From contig JAJGRE010000003.1 of assembly GCA_021083345.1 (NCBI GenBank), forward strand, positions 1-64,000: a stretch of 64,000 nucleotides of DNA. The letters are read 5' to 3'. Each line of letters begins with the position of its first letter. The first letter of the stretch is position 1. The notes under the pieces are model-generated. The model did not search any database. It saw only the letters and a program-made list of their open reading frames with translations, and had not been told where the DNA came from. The stretch comes from Calditrichales bacterium MX18-03 (GTDB lineage: Bacteria; Bacillota; Clostridia; Lutisporales; Lutisporaceae). This document shows positions 13,921-23,016 of the stretch, piece by piece. The position numbers were made by a program, and so were the translations under genes.

Positions 13921-13960
13921 TTAGGTTCCCCCTCTTTTGTCAGTAAGCGCATCGCTCTGT

Positions 13961-14710
13961 TTAAAGCAATTCAATCATCTTGTAGATGACCTTCTTCACC
14001 TTGTCATTATTCTCATTGAAGACTCTATAGACCTCTTCTTCCGTTACCGGCTTAATCTCGTCATGACCTTCCAGACCGGCATCATAATCGGTAATGAGAG
14101 CAATATTGACGTAGGGGATCTCCAATTCTTTGGCCAGCATGCACTCGGGGTACTGCGTCATGTTGATGACCTCCCAGCCCATGCTGCCGAACCATTTGCT
14201 TTCCGCCTTGGTAGAGAATCTAGGTCCCTGGATGACGACCACAGTCCCTTTTTTATGTACATTAACGCCTTGCTCCCGACATACTTTTACCGCCAGTGCC
14301 CTCAGCTTTTCGTCGTAAGGCTCAGCCGGGCTGATATGCTTGGTGACCGGACCTTCAAAATAAGTATCCTTTCTGCCCCAGGTCCTGTCCACAAACTGGT
14401 CGCATACGACGAACTCCCCCGGCTTGATATACGCTTGAAGGCTGCCTGAGGCAGTGGGTGCGATAATAGCTTTGACTCCAAGCATTTTCATGGCATATAC
14501 ATTGGCTCTGTATGGAATCATATGCGGCGGAAACTCATGCTTCTTCCCATGTCTCGGGAGGAAAGCCACCGTCTTGCTGCCGATCTTCGCCAAAGCGATT
14601 TTTTCACTGGTGCTGCCGTAAGGTGTCTCTATCTGAACCTCTTCTACCTGATCCAAAAAGGAATAAAAGCCCGAACCGCCAAACACACCGATATCTGCTT
14701 TATAATCCAT
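13961..14710 (-). CDS. mtnP: S-methyl-5'-thioadenosine phosphorylase
   Basis: MTA phosphorylase of the PNP/MTAP family (249 residues), splitting MTA into adenine and methylthioribose-1-phosphate. Motifs: GVFGGSGFYSFL phosphate-binding loop, LPRHGKKHEFPPHMIPYRAN, IQGPRFSTKAES, and NMTQYPECMLAKEL with the nucleoside-binding Met and Glu region. The ATG at 14710 has AGGAGGT upstream; residues further upstream are not expected. It fits functionally with speE, which makes MTA. Confidence 0.94.
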   Translation of the reverse strand: MDYKADIGVFGGSGFYSFLDQVEEVQIETPYGSTSEKIALAKIGSKTVAFLPRHGKKHEFPPHMIPYRANVYAMKMLGVKAIIAPTASGSLQAYIKPGEFVVCDQFVDRTWGRKDTYFEGPVTKHISPAEPYDEKLRALAVKVCREQGVNVHKKGTVVVIQGPRFSTKAESKWFGSMGWEVINMTQYPECMLAKELEIPYVNIALITDYDAGLEGHDEIKPVTEEEVYRVFNENNDKVKKVIYKMIELL

Positions 14711-18438: not shown

Positions 18439-20397
18439 CTAAAGCCTTTCTATGCGGCAGGTGCACTCGTTAAATACGGCCTGCATGCCGATGTCGCTCA
18501 TTCTGTCATCCGTCAGACGGTTCACACTGCCGCCGTTTTTCTTCCACCAGCCTTCATACATGAAAAGGACTTCCCTCTGGCAGCTGCTTGAAATACAAAC
18601 CAGCGCCTCCATTTCTCCAAAAGCATTGCTTAGCTTTACCTTCGATCCGTCTTGCACCGATTCTACCGCTGCATCTGACGGGCTGATATACACAAGCGGC
18701 AGCGGGGAAGCTTCATTCAGAAAATGCTGAGAGTGCAGTGAGTTTTTTTTGTGTATCGTTAAAAGCTTGTATTTTTCTTTTTTTATACGGTCCTCCGAAA
18801 GACATGTTTCCAGCGACGCTGTATCGATCAGCTTCATTCTTCCGTTTTCCGTAGCGAAATGCCCTTCCTGCCAGGGGATGTCCTGATCCTGCGGATTCCT
18901 GACAAACCCATCCCTGAATAGTGCTTCAATATCCATTCCGTTTTCAACAGAGGGATGCAGCAGGGCTTCTATCCAACTGCCGGGCGCCCTCATAGGAAAG
19001 CCGGGCAATTGCAGCAGATCAGCCAGCTTGGTGTAAATCTCTGCCTCCGACCTCGCTTCATGGTATCTGGGGGCACAGGGCACATTATAATGGATGTAGC
19101 CGTTCCAGCTATCTGAGGCGATTATATCCTCTTCTTCCAGAAAGTACGTGATCGGCAGCACCATATCGCATTGCTCTGCCGTATCAGTCATGAAATGCTC
19201 CAAGCAAATCTTGAATTCTACACCATTGACTGCATCAAGCACCTCCCCGGAATTGGGATTCTGAATCAGCGGATTGCTGCGGGAGATAAAAAGCATCTTT
19301 ACAGGCGGGTCCGTTGCTTCCTTCAGGGCTTTGCCCATCTTTGCTCTTGGCAGCACCCGGTTCTGCCTCTCAGGAAAGTTGAGGCCATGCCAGACAAGAT
19401 GCTCATGCACCGCATTGGCATAATTGGAACCACCGCCCGGGATGCCAATATTGCCTGAAAGCGCTGCCAGCATATCGATACTTCTGACTGCCGTTCCTCC
19501 GAACAGGCAGCGCTGCAGTCCAAAACCGATATGGATCGATGCGGGTTTGCTATTGCATAAAGTCTCCGCCAGCTCAACTATTTCATTCCAGCCAACACCA
19601 CAGCGCTGAGATAAGGCAGCAGCGTCGAGTGTCTTCAGATAATGGTATAGCGCTTCAAACCCATCCGTATGTTTTTCTATGAAAGCTTTATCATAAAGCT
19701 GCTTTTCAATTATGTACTTTGCTGCTGCGCAGGCCAGAGCACAGTCTCCCCCCGCAAGAGGCCTTACATGCCTGTCGGCAATTCCGGCTGTCTCTGTGGC
19801 TAAGGGATCTATGACAATGACGGCCGAACCCAGCGCCTTTGCTCTTTTGACGGCAGCAAACAGGTGGAGGCTGGTCTCCGCCGGATTTTTTCCCCATATT
19901 ACAATCGTTTTTGAATTCAAAAGGTCCTCAAAGCTGTGATACCGGGGGCAACCAAAATCAAGGCTCTGGGCGGCAAAGCCGGCGCCGCAGCATAGACTTC
20001 CTTTGAATCGGGTCGTATCACCCAAGAAGTCGAAAAATAGATTCTCAATGTTTTTCAGCTTGCCGTTTGAGCCGCTGTAATTGTATAATGCAATGCTTTT
20101 TGTGCCGTATCTATCCCAGTAACTCTTCAACTTATCTGTTATGACTCCAAAAGCATCCTCCCAGGATATCCGCTTCCAGCGGCCATCGAGCTTACGCATG
20201 GGGTACTTCAAACGCTTTGGGCTGTACATCCGCTCAATATGCTGTCTGCCCTTATCGCAGATAAACCCTTTGGTTATCGGGTGGTCCTTGTTCCCCTCCA
20301 GCTTTGTTATTTTTCCTTCTTCGTCCGTCCAGACCACCAGACTGCAGACATCGAAGCAATCAAGGGGGCAGGCGCATATCTGTTTTCTCAACGGCAA
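18439..20397 (-). CDS. Molybdopterin-dependent oxidoreductase
   Basis: Molybdopterin enzyme of the DMSO-reductase superfamily, 652 residues. The N-terminal 4Fe-4S motif is CACPLDCFDVC with a fourth Cys in GFICDKG. Molybdopterin-binding stretches include WGKNPAETS and FISRSNPLIQNPNSGE, and the C-terminal dinucleotide-binding domain is present. GSLCCGAGF carries Cys near where the metal ligand is expected. There is no Tat signal, so it is probably cytoplasmic. No partner subunit or cofactor gene is nearby; the substrate is unknown. The start is TTG at 20397 with GGGGGTGA upstream. It is first in a unit with the helicase. Confidence 0.88.
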   Translation of the reverse strand: MPLRKQICACPLDCFDVCSLVVWTDEEGKITKLEGNKDHPITKGFICDKGRQHIERMYSPKRLKYPMRKLDGRWKRISWEDAFGVITDKLKSYWDRYGTKSIALYNYSGSNGKLKNIENLFFDFLGDTTRFKGSLCCGAGFAAQSLDFGCPRYHSFEDLLNSKTIVIWGKNPAETSLHLFAAVKRAKALGSAVIVIDPLATETAGIADRHVRPLAGGDCALACAAAKYIIEKQLYDKAFIEKHTDGFEALYHYLKTLDAAALSQRCGVGWNEIVELAETLCNSKPASIHIGFGLQRCLFGGTAVRSIDMLAALSGNIGIPGGGSNYANAVHEHLVWHGLNFPERQNRVLPRAKMGKALKEATDPPVKMLFISRSNPLIQNPNSGEVLDAVNGVEFKICLEHFMTDTAEQCDMVLPITYFLEEEDIIASDSWNGYIHYNVPCAPRYHEARSEAEIYTKLADLLQLPGFPMRAPGSWIEALLHPSVENGMDIEALFRDGFVRNPQDQDIPWQEGHFATENGRMKLIDTASLETCLSEDRIKKEKYKLLTIHKKNSLHSQHFLNEASPLPLVYISPSDAAVESVQDGSKVKLSNAFGEMEALVCISSSCQREVLFMYEGWWKKNGGSVNRLTDDRMSDIGMQAVFNECTCRIERL

Positions 20398-20419
20398 GGG
20401 ATCACCCCCTTCTCTCTAT

Positions 20420-20620
20420 TACTCTGTTAACTCTAAAATATGTATTACTCGGCGAGGAAAATTTTCGTAGGATACCCGCAAACCAAGGCGGAGGAGTGAG
20501 TAATACTCTATGTATTGCGAGTGATCACATAAAATACCAACTCCGTTGGCATTTTATGTGCCAACGCAGTACTACGGAAATTTACCGGCGATAATATATA
20601 GAATTAGGGTTAACAGAGTA
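20420..20620. mobile_element. MITE-like palindromic element, 201 bp
   Basis: The ends are TACTCTGTTAAC (20420) and GTTAACAGAGTA (to 20620), a perfect 12-bp terminal inverted repeat whose similarity continues imperfectly for about 50 bp inward. The centre has a 16-bp stem with one mismatch, CACATAAAATACCAAC/GTTGGCATTTTATGTG (about 20525-20560). There is no coding capacity. Flanks are CTAT and CTAA, so a target-site duplication is not certain. It fills most of the gap between iorB and the oxidoreductase gene. Confidence 0.75.
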
Positions 20621-20657
20621 CTAATGGCTTTCTTTGATTATTATACCATAAAATAAC

Positions 20658-20683
20658 GAAGGAAGGTGATGACACCTTCCTTC
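20658..20683 (-). terminator. Terminator of iorAB
   Basis: Minus-strand hairpin GAAGGAAGGTG/CACCTTCCTTC with loop TCAT, followed by GTTATTTTAT. It lies 13 bases after the iorB stop. Confidence 0.75.
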
Positions 20684-20696
20684 AGCATTTTTTTGA

Positions 20697-21269
20697 TTAC
20701 AATTCCATACCTTTATTGAAAGCAGCAATATTGATATCTACCATCTTGGCAGGAATGATTTCCTTCATGATCTCAATCCAGTCGATATCCGTCAATTCCA
20801 GAGCCTTTACCAAGGCACCCAGCAGGACAATATTCTGAGTCTTGATGTTACCGACCTCAAGCGCTGCTTTGCCTGCATCAACAGTGACTGTTTTGAAGAC
20901 TTTTTCCAGTGCTTCGATGACCCCTTGCGGATAATCTGCTTTGCCGCTGGCAATGACGATGGATGGGATCTCATAATTGTTCACCACCACAGTGCCTTCC
21001 GGTTTCAGGTATTCAACCCATCTTGCTGCTTCCATCTTCTCAAAGGATACAAGGATATCTGCCTGTCCTACACCGATAATAGGCGAAAAAACCTTCTTGC
21101 CGTACCGCACCTGTGTAGTGACGCTGCCGCCTCTCTGCGCCATGCCGTGAACCTCGGACATCTTGACATCATAGCCTGCCTTCAAGAGTCCGGCAGTCAG
21201 TATCTTGCTGACCAGGATGATTCCCTGTCCGCCGACGCCAACCAATAATATATTCTTCGCATCGTTCAT
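20697..21269 (-). CDS. iorB: Indolepyruvate:ferredoxin oxidoreductase, beta subunit
   Basis: Gamma-type pyruvate ferredoxin oxidoreductase domain, 190 residues. With IorA it oxidatively decarboxylates aryl 2-keto acids to acyl-CoA, reducing ferredoxin. Motifs: ILLVGVGGQGIILVSK, SEVHGMAQRGGSVTTQVRYG. The ATG at 21269 is chosen because GGTGA lies upstream; an earlier in-frame start at 21296 would overlap iorA by 26 bases. The iorA stop is one base before it, so translation is probably coupled. Confidence 0.95.
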   Translation of the reverse strand: MNDAKNILLVGVGGQGIILVSKILTAGLLKAGYDVKMSEVHGMAQRGGSVTTQVRYGKKVFSPIIGVGQADILVSFEKMEAARWVEYLKPEGTVVVNNYEIPSIVIASGKADYPQGVIEALEKVFKTVTVDAGKAALEVGNIKTQNIVLLGALVKALELTDIDWIEIMKEIIPAKMVDINIAAFNKGMEL

Positions 21270-21270
21270 C

Positions 21271-23016
21271 TTATTCACCAACCTTCTCAATCGCATTAAA
21301 TTTGCATACCTGCTTGCAAACCTCGCAACCTACGCACATAGAAGCTTCAATGTAGGCGGTGCCGTCCTTGAAGAATACGGCCGGGCAGCCCACCTTCAAG
21401 CACATCTTGCATTTCTTGCAGTTTTCCCTGTTGACGACACATTTGTTCTTGAAAGGCGGAAGTCCCTTGATCAGGACGCAAGGCCTTTTTGTAACAATGG
21501 CAGTCGGCTCTTCGCTCTTTACGGCTTCTTCGGCTGCATCATCCATTGCTTTCAGATCGCAGGGATCAACAACCAATACCTTAAAGCCCACAGCTTTCAT
21601 AATATCTGTAGGATCCATCTGAGTCGTGGACTCGCCCATCAGCGTCTTACCGGTTCCGGGGTTTTCCTGATGACCTGTCATTCCGGTAATGCTGTTGTCC
21701 AGAACCACTGGAACCATTTTCCCTTTATTATATAGAATGTCGATAGCACCGGTTATGCCTGAATGGAAGAACGTCGAATCTCCTAATACGCCGAACACCT
21801 TGTTATCTCTTCCGGACACTTCAAATGCTTTTGCCATGCCCATTCCTGCGCTGAAGCCGGCTCCCATGCAGATGCAGGTATCCATTGCATTGAGAGGCTC
21901 CATGCCGCCTAATGTATAACAGCCGATATCGCTGGTTACAACAGTATTCTTCTTCTTGGACATCGTGTAGAAGAAGCCTCTGTGCGGGCAGCCCGGACAG
22001 AGCACCGGCGGTCTTGGTACAACATTGACGTCCACTTTTTTCGTTTCGGTTTTTTCGTTCAAAAGCGATTGTGCCACGATATCGGGATTCAACTCATAGA
22101 TATTCGGAACCAATGCCTTACCGATACATTGAATGCCAGCCGCCTTTATCTGCTCTTCCATGAAGGGTTCCAGCTCTTCAACGATGTAAAGCGTCTCATG
22201 CTTGGAAGCAAAATACCGGATGAGATCCATCGGCAGCGGATAAGTGAAGCCCAGCTTCAGGATGGAAACCTGGTCGCCGAATACTTCCTTTACATACTGG
22301 TAAGCAATGCCGGCTGTGATAATCCCTATCTTTGAACCATTCTCCTCAATTTTATTAAGAATTGAGGTGTTGGCATACTGCTCCATGTCTTTAAGCTTCT
22401 GCTCTACCTTGACATGGGCGATCTTGGCATGGGCAGGTGTTGCCACAAACTTGGGTATATTTCTGGCGTAAGGCTTGTGTCCTACTTCCTTGCGCTCCCC
22501 CAATTCAACAATACATTTACTGTGACTGATACGCGTCGTTACCCTAAATAACACAGGAACATCGAACCTTTCACTGACCTCATAAGCTTCTGCCAGAAAA
22601 TCCTTGCACTCCTGGCTGTCACTGGGTTCTATGAGCGCCATTTTGGCGAACTTCGCATAGTAGCGGTTGTCCTGCTCATTCTGAGAGCTGTGCATGCTGG
22701 GATCGTCGGCAGAAACCAATACGAAGCCGCCGTTGACACCAAGATACGCATACGTAAAAATAGGATCGGCTGCGACATTGACACCTACATGCTTCATTGC
22801 GCATATGCTTCTCGCACCGGCAATGGACGCACCGATGGCTACCTCGGCTGCAACCTTTTCATTTGGAGACCATTCGCTATAGATATGCTCCTTGTATTCG
22901 ACCATGTTCTCCAGGATTTCGGTGCTGGGTGTTCCGGGATAAGCGGCAGCCATCGTGACGCCTGCTTCATAAGCACCTCTGGCGATTGCTTCATTACCCG
23001 ACATTAATTGTTTCAC
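21271..23016 (-). CDS. iorA: Indolepyruvate:ferredoxin oxidoreductase, alpha subunit
   Basis: Catalytic subunit of 581 residues using thiamine pyrophosphate, CoA and ferredoxin. N-terminal domain with GNEAIARGAYEAGV and AAYPGTPSTEI; TPP domain with LCPGCPHRGFFY and GVLGDSTFFHSGITG; C-terminal 4Fe-4S domain with CKKCKMCLKVGCPA and CVGCEVCKQVC. The start is GTG at 23016 with AAGGGGG 8 bases upstream. It forms an operon with iorB. Role: catabolism of aromatic amino acids after transamination. Confidence 0.96.
   Translation of the reverse strand: MKQLMSGNEAIARGAYEAGVTMAAAYPGTPSTEILENMVEYKEHIYSEWSPNEKVAAEVAIGASIAGARSICAMKHVGVNVAADPIFTYAYLGVNGGFVLVSADDPSMHSSQNEQDNRYYAKFAKMALIEPSDSQECKDFLAEAYEVSERFDVPVLFRVTTRISHSKCIVELGERKEVGHKPYARNIPKFVATPAHAKIAHVKVEQKLKDMEQYANTSILNKIEENGSKIGIITAGIAYQYVKEVFGDQVSILKLGFTYPLPMDLIRYFASKHETLYIVEELEPFMEEQIKAAGIQCIGKALVPNIYELNPDIVAQSLLNEKTETKKVDVNVVPRPPVLCPGCPHRGFFYTMSKKKNTVVTSDIGCYTLGGMEPLNAMDTCICMGAGFSAGMGMAKAFEVSGRDNKVFGVLGDSTFFHSGITGAIDILYNKGKMVPVVLDNSITGMTGHQENPGTGKTLMGESTTQMDPTDIMKAVGFKVLVVDPCDLKAMDDAAEEAVKSEEPTAIVTKRPCVLIKGLPPFKNKCVVNRENCKKCKMCLKVGCPAVFFKDGTAYIEASMCVGCEVCKQVCKFNAIEKVGE

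Follow-up and report, generated by a model that had tools for sequence, protein, structure and literature searches.

The element at positions 20,419 to 20,621 of the window—i.e. the whole 64,000-nucleotide stretch of Calditrichales bacterium MX18-03 DNA analyzed here—is a MITE with ordinary ends and an unusual middle. By its ends only, it is filed as an IS630-type MITE, with a putative transposase source and a presumed TA duplication. The more interesting part, which the preliminary description missed, is its interior: a member of a structured core family that is common to elements with other ends. Taken as a whole, the data are probably best explained by an IS630-type MITE with a structured, strand-specific core, in a lineage that has repeatedly changed its arms and transposase. 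The features of the element and of its surroundings in the window are as follows.

18439..20397, minus strand: molybdopterin oxidoreductase open reading frame (Pfam), its opening TTG, a putative start, about 20 bp from the element
20417..20418, no strand: left TA, presumed half of a TA target duplication, from the sequence, the IS630-like ends and 2 of 3 related empty sites
20419..20621, plus strand (the better-folding strand, also that of the core model): whole element, long form, 203 bp between the flanking TAs
20419..20436, plus strand: left terminal inverted repeat, IS630-like, with one changed tip base
20452..20589, plus strand: core, long form, a full-length match to covariance model R2 (28.0 bits, E = 0.00038 in the window)
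20473..20483, plus strand: long-form insert 1 (TACCCGCAAAC), missing from short copies
20484..20495, plus strand: conserved 5' core strand (CAAGGCGGAGGA), holding the AAG side of an asymmetric AAG/A internal loop
20500..20518, plus strand: small hairpin, the tip of the short-form core (GTAATAC...GTATTGC)
20526..20560, plus strand: long-form insert 2, an extra hairpin
20562..20571, plus strand: conserved 3' core strand (CAACGCAGTA)
20604..20621, minus strand: right terminal inverted repeat, IS630-like
20622..20623, no strand: right TA, presumed half of a TA target duplication, from the sequence and related empty sites
20657..20684, no strand: terminator-like hairpin between the upstream gene and the element, with matches on both strands
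20697..21296, minus strand: gene for a POR-domain protein (PF01558), read as the beta subunit of indolepyruvate oxidoreductase; it lies upstream of the element and shares the strand of the oxidoreductase gene

The terminal inverted repeats that the preliminary description reported are present, and its perfect 12-bp stretch (TACTCTGTTAAC / GTTAACAGAGTA) lies inside arms of 20 nt with 90% complementarity (20417-20436 and 20604-20623). The limits it gave, 20420-20620, are near, and are better set at 20419-20621, with TA on both sides. Its strong central hairpin is found as well, with strands at 20526-20541 and 20545-20560, and corresponds to insert 2 of the long form. When folded whole, the 207 nt from 20417 to 20623 make one long hairpin, and the wider imperfect symmetry that had been claimed is a palindrome far beyond chance: the RNA fold of the plus strand reaches -83.7 kcal/mol vs. 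-42.7 (SD 4.4) in shuffles (z = -9.2; 0 of 200 as low), and that of the minus strand -70.2 kcal/mol (z = -6.6; 0 of 200 as low). The left tip of the window copy reads ATTAC, as opposed to AGTAC in the 14 other aligned copies that keep that end.

The element was correctly placed just upstream of the molybdopterin oxidoreductase gene, identified by Pfam at 18439-20397 on the minus strand, opposite to the better-folding strand of the element (plus). By eye, an extended -10-like TGGTATAAT is seen on the minus strand at 20648-20640, between the upstream terminator and the element. As a putative promoter, it could drive the oxidoreductase gene through the element; a promoter scan of the window did not report it. 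The proposed effect of the element on oxidoreductase expression is a guess.

The genome-wide similarity search that the preliminary description had called for reveals a dispersed repeat, F1, and not a single copy. Specifically, window positions 20400-20650 have 31 matches at 18 distinct places in the organism's own genome (4.69 Mb, 15 contigs), including 7 long copies (the window's among them), 8 short copies, and 3 fragments; the other matches arise at these 18 places too, from a second piece or from the opposite arm. The element is thus short, bounded by terminal inverted repeats, free of a transposase gene and repeated at 18 genomic places, as MITEs are, and the near-identity of its dispersed copies, together with the IS630-like repeats, agrees with its earlier reading as a non-autonomous mobile element. 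The six other long copies are 85-96% identical to that of the window. Long copies measure about 206 bp and short ones about 161 bp, with ends that read AGTACTCTGTTAAC...GTTAACAGAGTACT in the copy alignment, and the long form equals the short form plus the 11-nt insert and the extra hairpin. Among 40 related genomes, none of them of the same genus, no genome contains the F1 repeat (0/40).

A query with the short-form core also uncovers a second arm family in the same genome, F2 (AGGAACAACT...), which combines other arms with a core of the same type and occupies 11 places, several of which are fragments. In one F2 copy, L092, extra sequence is found at both positions where the F1 long form has it. 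An insert similar to F1 insert 1 is present at the same place in three F2 elements (L092, L094, and L097), and its likeness across families is seen in TGCCTGCAAAAC (L092) and CACCCGTCAAAC (L094) next to TACCCGCAAAC of F1. A further long F2 copy, L093/L214, has the extra hairpin and lacks the first insert. Reduced forms of both families occur in this genome: at L292 (G000:C7:1226318-1226348), facing F1 ends nearly touch, as a collapsed palindrome with no core; L293 (G000:C8:1067777 onward) is a core-less palindrome of about 45 bp with F2 ends; and L288 and L289 (G000:C11:76744 and C9:331161) are F2 halves truncated within the extra hairpin of long copies or shortly after it.

The core of about 94 nt recurs with still other arms, either singly or in back-to-back pairs. 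In a collection of species genomes, an exact core pattern is found in Petroclostridium sp. X23 and in a MAG of the Syntrophomonadaceae. These two records, which the NCBI lineage places in the Clostridia, each have more than one match, and Petroclostridium carries a third arm family (L053). A covariance model built from 14 cores (R1) has matches in 61 of 391 genomes of the class (40 of 222 genera), and the retrained model (R2) in 28 of 398 genomes of the phylum (23 of 267 genera), the own genome being included in both counts and the two samples overlapping. In the own genome, R2 matches 22 places at E up to 1, where short copies score 87-100 bits. Together, the two model searches yield 82 + 110 = 192 matches, or 184 without identical stretches. 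For the tests of arms, strands, and ends, elements with an arm score below 10 were excluded, which keeps 107 of the 184 and, among these, 51 nonredundant single elements that fall into 31 arm groups by shared words.

Paired cores have a preferred arrangement. Among close pairs, counted over all 192 matches so that places fetched twice (such as L130/L169) count twice, 19 of 21 are oriented "-+" and 2 "--". Eight "-+" pairs were folded, and each has both hairpins inside one outer palindrome. Neighboring cores in the same orientation are seen at L239 (1501-1597 and 1613-1710) and at L150 (597-691 and 758-871), the latter resembling one element beside another.

The core family is absent from Rfam as searched—i.e. 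Rfam 15 gives sub-threshold rows and nothing at the gathering score over window positions 20300-20750 and 23 loci. When the window element and a double-core element were searched for in plasmids and phages (E 1e-5), neither had a relative there, and viral contigs have 0 matches to exact core patterns. We found no description of the core in the literature at the level of titles and abstract openings, with subscription papers and supplements outside this search, so a prior one is possible; one study tabulates 250 palindromic candidate RNAs, among which the core may be (PMC8040213). In the text searched of a 2024 review of prokaryotic MITEs, the terms Clostridi-, IS630, Firmicutes, Bacillota, and "conserved core" do not occur (PMC10969869).

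The core has a recurrent structure. It ends in a small hairpin and has an AAG/A internal loop with a short helix on either side (..AC-AAG-GCG.. / ..CGC-A-GU..); the GCG/CGC pairs make the weakest helix (68.9% of cells paired), and the apical part is the most variable in length. In the model-fitted alignment (A2), 91.1% of cells are paired vs. 68.2% after shuffling, with a covariation score of 0.589 vs. 0.172. Because A2 leans toward the model, the analysis was repeated with a plain MAFFT alignment. From 74 nonredundant cores of 85-100 nt, 72 were aligned, leaving out the truncated L223 and L239:1613-1710; median pairwise identity is about 51% in a parallel alignment of the 74. With these 72 cores, 86.2% of cells are paired vs. 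66.2% shuffled, 292 cells carry double changes vs. 88, and the covariation score is 0.496 vs. 0.161 in shuffles and 0.08-0.18 in slid structures. On all five measures, the real alignment exceeds every one of 500 shuffles. Covariation in palindromes can, however, also be produced by template-switch correction.

The strands of the element are not equivalent. The model strand folds more stably than the opposite one in every nonredundant single element (51 of 51), with a mean difference of -16.3 kcal/mol (Wilcoxon P = 5e-10), and it does so in 82 of 86 cores alone. Because the orientation of the core is set by the RNA model, and the arms lie outside this model, arms were tested separately, and this is the only test of strand preference free of the choice of orientation by the RNA model. 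Arms alone favor the same strand in 44 of 51 elements and in 26 of 31 distinct arm groups (P = 8.5e-5 for groups). Over 1462 arm positions, mismatches comprise 90 G.T vs. 29 A.C, plus 129 of other kinds. This difference speaks for strand-specific selection, since G.T and A.C would otherwise be equally common. DNA parameters also make the same strand more stable in 51 of 51, and therefore RNA and single-stranded DNA (ssDNA) are not distinguished by this comparison. As such, a fold of single-stranded RNA or ssDNA appears to be selected.

Orientation relative to genes was also analyzed, using genes called by a simple ORF rule. Flanks were sufficient for 173 of 184 elements, and removal of 21 located in ORFs and of 16 without a gene on both sides leaves 136. 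Co-directional cases number 117 of 272 (P = 0.025 toward antisense), with no sense bias, and hence there is no support here for host transcription or read-through of the folding strand.

The arms include two large classes, beginning with AGT (that of the window) or AGG, which differ in their target sites. Of 84 elements with AG ends, 33 AGG and 45 AGT remain after removal of duplicates. In the AGG class, the outer bases on the left and right agree in 23 of 33 cases vs. 13.4 expected (permutation P = 0.0002), and in 16 of 33 they read exactly TTA or TAA, the pattern of a TWA duplication of 3 bp. The AGT class has no such correlation between the two sides (6 of 45 vs. 6.9 expected), and its TA duplication is not clean.

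Many arms of the AGT class resemble the ends of an IS630-family transposon. The locus L331, in another genome of the phylum (G572), is a transposon of this family of 1240 bp, with HTH_32 and DDE_3 domains in two reading frames and ends that read AGTACTCTGTAACAGCTAAAAGTT and AGTACCTTGCAACATCTAAAAGTT; among five plasmid records similar to it, four are annotated as IS630 family transposase at the match. The two arms of the window element score 12 and 10 against these ends, and only 0 and 2 of 2000 shuffles, respectively, score as high. More broadly, 84 AGT-class arms have a mean score of 8.6 vs. 0.37 for shuffled arms, and 70 AGG-class arms one of 2.5 vs. 0.21. Scores above 6, the shuffle maximum, are reached by 52 of 84 AGT and 4 of 70 AGG arms, so that not every AGT arm is demonstrably IS630-like. 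The core model has no match, at E up to 10, in L331 or L332, the only two IS630 loci compared with it.

The own genome has 0 matches to PF13358 (DDE_3), and for this reason we infer, rather than observe, mobilization in trans. Across 18 genomes, PF13358 matches occur in 2, with one match broken by stops. Scans of the own genome that allow 2 mismatches to the F1 ends, or 3 to the F2 ends, find no inverted pair at transposon distance, and most of the F1 rows with 2 mismatches are due to chance, because a reversed control pattern matched about equally often. Fifteen regions around lone ends were considered as autonomous partners, and turned out to be decayed halves, core-less palindromes, or chance matches; L290, where a TIR-like match falls by eye in a transposase-like ORF, was set aside as chance. 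Among six viral-contig loci identified from TIR patterns, none of which has a core at E up to 1, only L329 resembles a transposon end: an AGT-type end is followed by an ORF start that reads by eye as IS630-like. This viral contig stops inside the apparent IS630 element with AGT-type ends (13935-14060). For a partner of the AGG class, a pattern scan led to 29 viral-contig loci with no convincing second end and no core, and the plasmid matches to an F2 element do not rise above chance.

Empty sites provide a view of insertion in related elements. The joined flanks of eight insertions, five double-core and three single-core, were searched in five genomes. Clean empty sites are found for 3 of the 8, all of them double-core insertions with empty sites in sister species, in elements that are related, not identical, to that of the window; none of these sites belongs to its F1 family. 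At L160/L299, the filled site ...GGATATTC-TTAG[element]CTAA-GCAGAC... corresponds to the empty site ...GGATATTC-TTAC-GCAGAC..., and at L170/L295, ...ATTTAAG-CTAG[element]CTAA-ACTTAG... corresponds to ...ATTTAAG-ATAA-CCTTAG... At L167/L296, the empty site is GAG-TTG-TCC, without a TA. Two of the three clean empty sites therefore fit a TA duplication with a changed base beside the TA, and the third has no TA. A spanning match at L173/L298 (78% identity) has a blurred junction, and the four other insertions have no spanning match in a sister genome.

The AGT and AGG labels, defined by the first three arm bases only, were placed on a tree of 46 cores that have either type of end. The label changes 7 times on this tree (bootstrap 6-8), vs. 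a mean of 15 when shuffled; strong branches force at least 2 changes, and 0 of 200 bootstrap trees need only one. More than one label change is thus the better supported outcome, with a number that is uncertain because many branches are weak. A change of label may reflect a change of transposase, that of the AGG class (ends AGGAAC...GTTCCT) being putative and, to judge by its TWA duplication, perhaps IS5/IS1031-like.

The ends of the window element imitate the inverted repeats of the IS630 family (Tc1/mariner-like) and have TA on both sides, so that an IS630 transposase acting in trans would be the most likely mover. The interior has no similarity to the IS630 element examined, and is a structured core of about 94 nt that many elements with different ends share across Bacillota. 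Core and arms both look optimized to fold on one strand in single-stranded form, with a conserved asymmetric internal loop. The core may be a structured RNA that promotes the persistence or spread of the element lineage, a hairpin of strand-specific ssDNA being the less likely form, and this lineage would have repeatedly changed its transposase through new terminal arms. A bolder proposal is that the core itself is the mobile unit—i.e. a strand-specific structured RNA or ssDNA lineage, present across Bacillota, that rides on different transposase families by exchanging arms (IS630-type, TWA-duplicating, and others) and forms back-to-back dimers within one palindrome—and this we hold tentatively, at somewhat less than an even chance. 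MITEs are usually viewed as gutted copies of one transposon; here, the middle is conserved and the ends are variable. If true, the core would be a nucleic-acid module, selfish or functional, that persists longer than any single transposase, and small repeats of many Bacillota would carry a common structured RNA or ssDNA module that the covariance model makes findable and testable in many genomes. Caution is warranted in that such hairpins can be wrongly taken for independent regulatory RNAs.

Alternatively, the element could be an ordinary IS630-type MITE with a passive palindrome as its interior, in which covariation arises from template-switch (quasipalindrome) correction and common descent. 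The stable stem-loops that MITE transcripts typically form, according to the text consulted from one review (PMC10969869), are in line with this, as are the core-less collapsed palindromes with F1 and F2 ends (L292 and L293) and the fact that the present analysis found no function for the core. However, asymmetric loops would be expected to disappear under correction, and the AAG/A loop is conserved; nor should correction favor G.T over A.C, which number 90 vs. 29 in the arms. With 51 of 51 elements folding better on one strand and the same core inside elements with other ends, we consider a passive interior unlikely. Somewhat more weight, short of making it probable, goes to selection of the fold as strand-specific ssDNA, e.g. 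as a binding site for a transposase or host protein while the element is single-stranded. The DNA parameters favor the same strand in 51 of 51 elements, the back-to-back pairs (19 of 21 "-+") recall REP doublets, and a sense orientation bias is lacking, but the TWA duplications of one class and the IS630-type ends of the other fit DDE transposases that act on double-stranded DNA. Strand-dependent insertion should also bias orientation, and only a slight antisense excess is seen (117 of 272, P = 0.025), gene orientation being an indirect proxy for replication direction.

We regard it as very improbable that the element is a repeated cis-regulatory RNA or terminator of neighboring genes, even with a stable hairpin directly upstream of the oxidoreductase gene and a -10-like TGGTATAAT (minus strand, 20648-20640, by eye) that would read through the element. 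All four gene arrangements occur among the 136 elements with genes on both sides, 21 of 173 elements lie inside called ORFs, and the window scan gives only small terminator-like hairpins, at the edge of the element and inside it. The "REP-like" alternative of the preliminary description is the weaker of its two proposals, as REPs are much shorter than this element, whose inverted repeats are of the transposase type. Being palindromic, often intergenic and multi-copy, with double-core forms that recall BIMEs and REPINs, these elements do share traits with REP/BIME sequences moved by a RAYT (Y1) transposase; with sizes of about 160 to 275 bp, inverted repeats of the transposase type, and either TWA duplications or IS630-type ends depending on the class, such an origin is barely credible.

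Several known repeats resemble the element in part. The Correia/NEMIS elements of Neisseria are MITEs of two lengths, with TA targets and hairpin transcripts, and are like the present element by description only; we know of no core common to both. Also by description, bcr1 of the Bacillus cereus group is similar in being an imperfect palindromic mobile repeat of about 155 bp from Bacillota, and differs in its TTTAT duplications. REPINs and BIMEs are palindromic with paired inverted units, as here, and differ in their ends, sizes, and target patterns. As for IS630 transposons, L331 (1.24 kb) has ends like those of the window element and like many arms of the AGT class; it differs from the window element in having a transposase gene and no core.

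The nearest precedents found, in the text consulted from PMC3049150, are RUP and the BOX elements of Streptococcus suis. In pneumococcus, RUP is a 107-bp repeat unit with a TIR similar to that of IS630-Spn1, and is hypothesized to be moved in trans (PMC3049150). Like the window element, it is small and non-autonomous with IS630-type inverted repeats; it differs in size (about 107 bp vs. 161-206 bp here, compared by description only), and a shared core with other ends is not part of the account of RUP in that text. The BOX repeats of streptococci are modular and foldable, and those of S. suis keep one type of inner boxB module between end modules that differ (PMC3049150), a precedent for exchangeable ends. 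BOX elements vary in the number of boxB modules, whereas the elements described here have one core, or two back-to-back, with varied arms across the phylum.

A separate structured RNA was observed near one of these cores. In Petroclostridium sp. X23, a c-di-GMP-I riboswitch (78.9 bits) is located at positions 2852-2943 of L053, on the minus strand, about 1.3 kb from the core.
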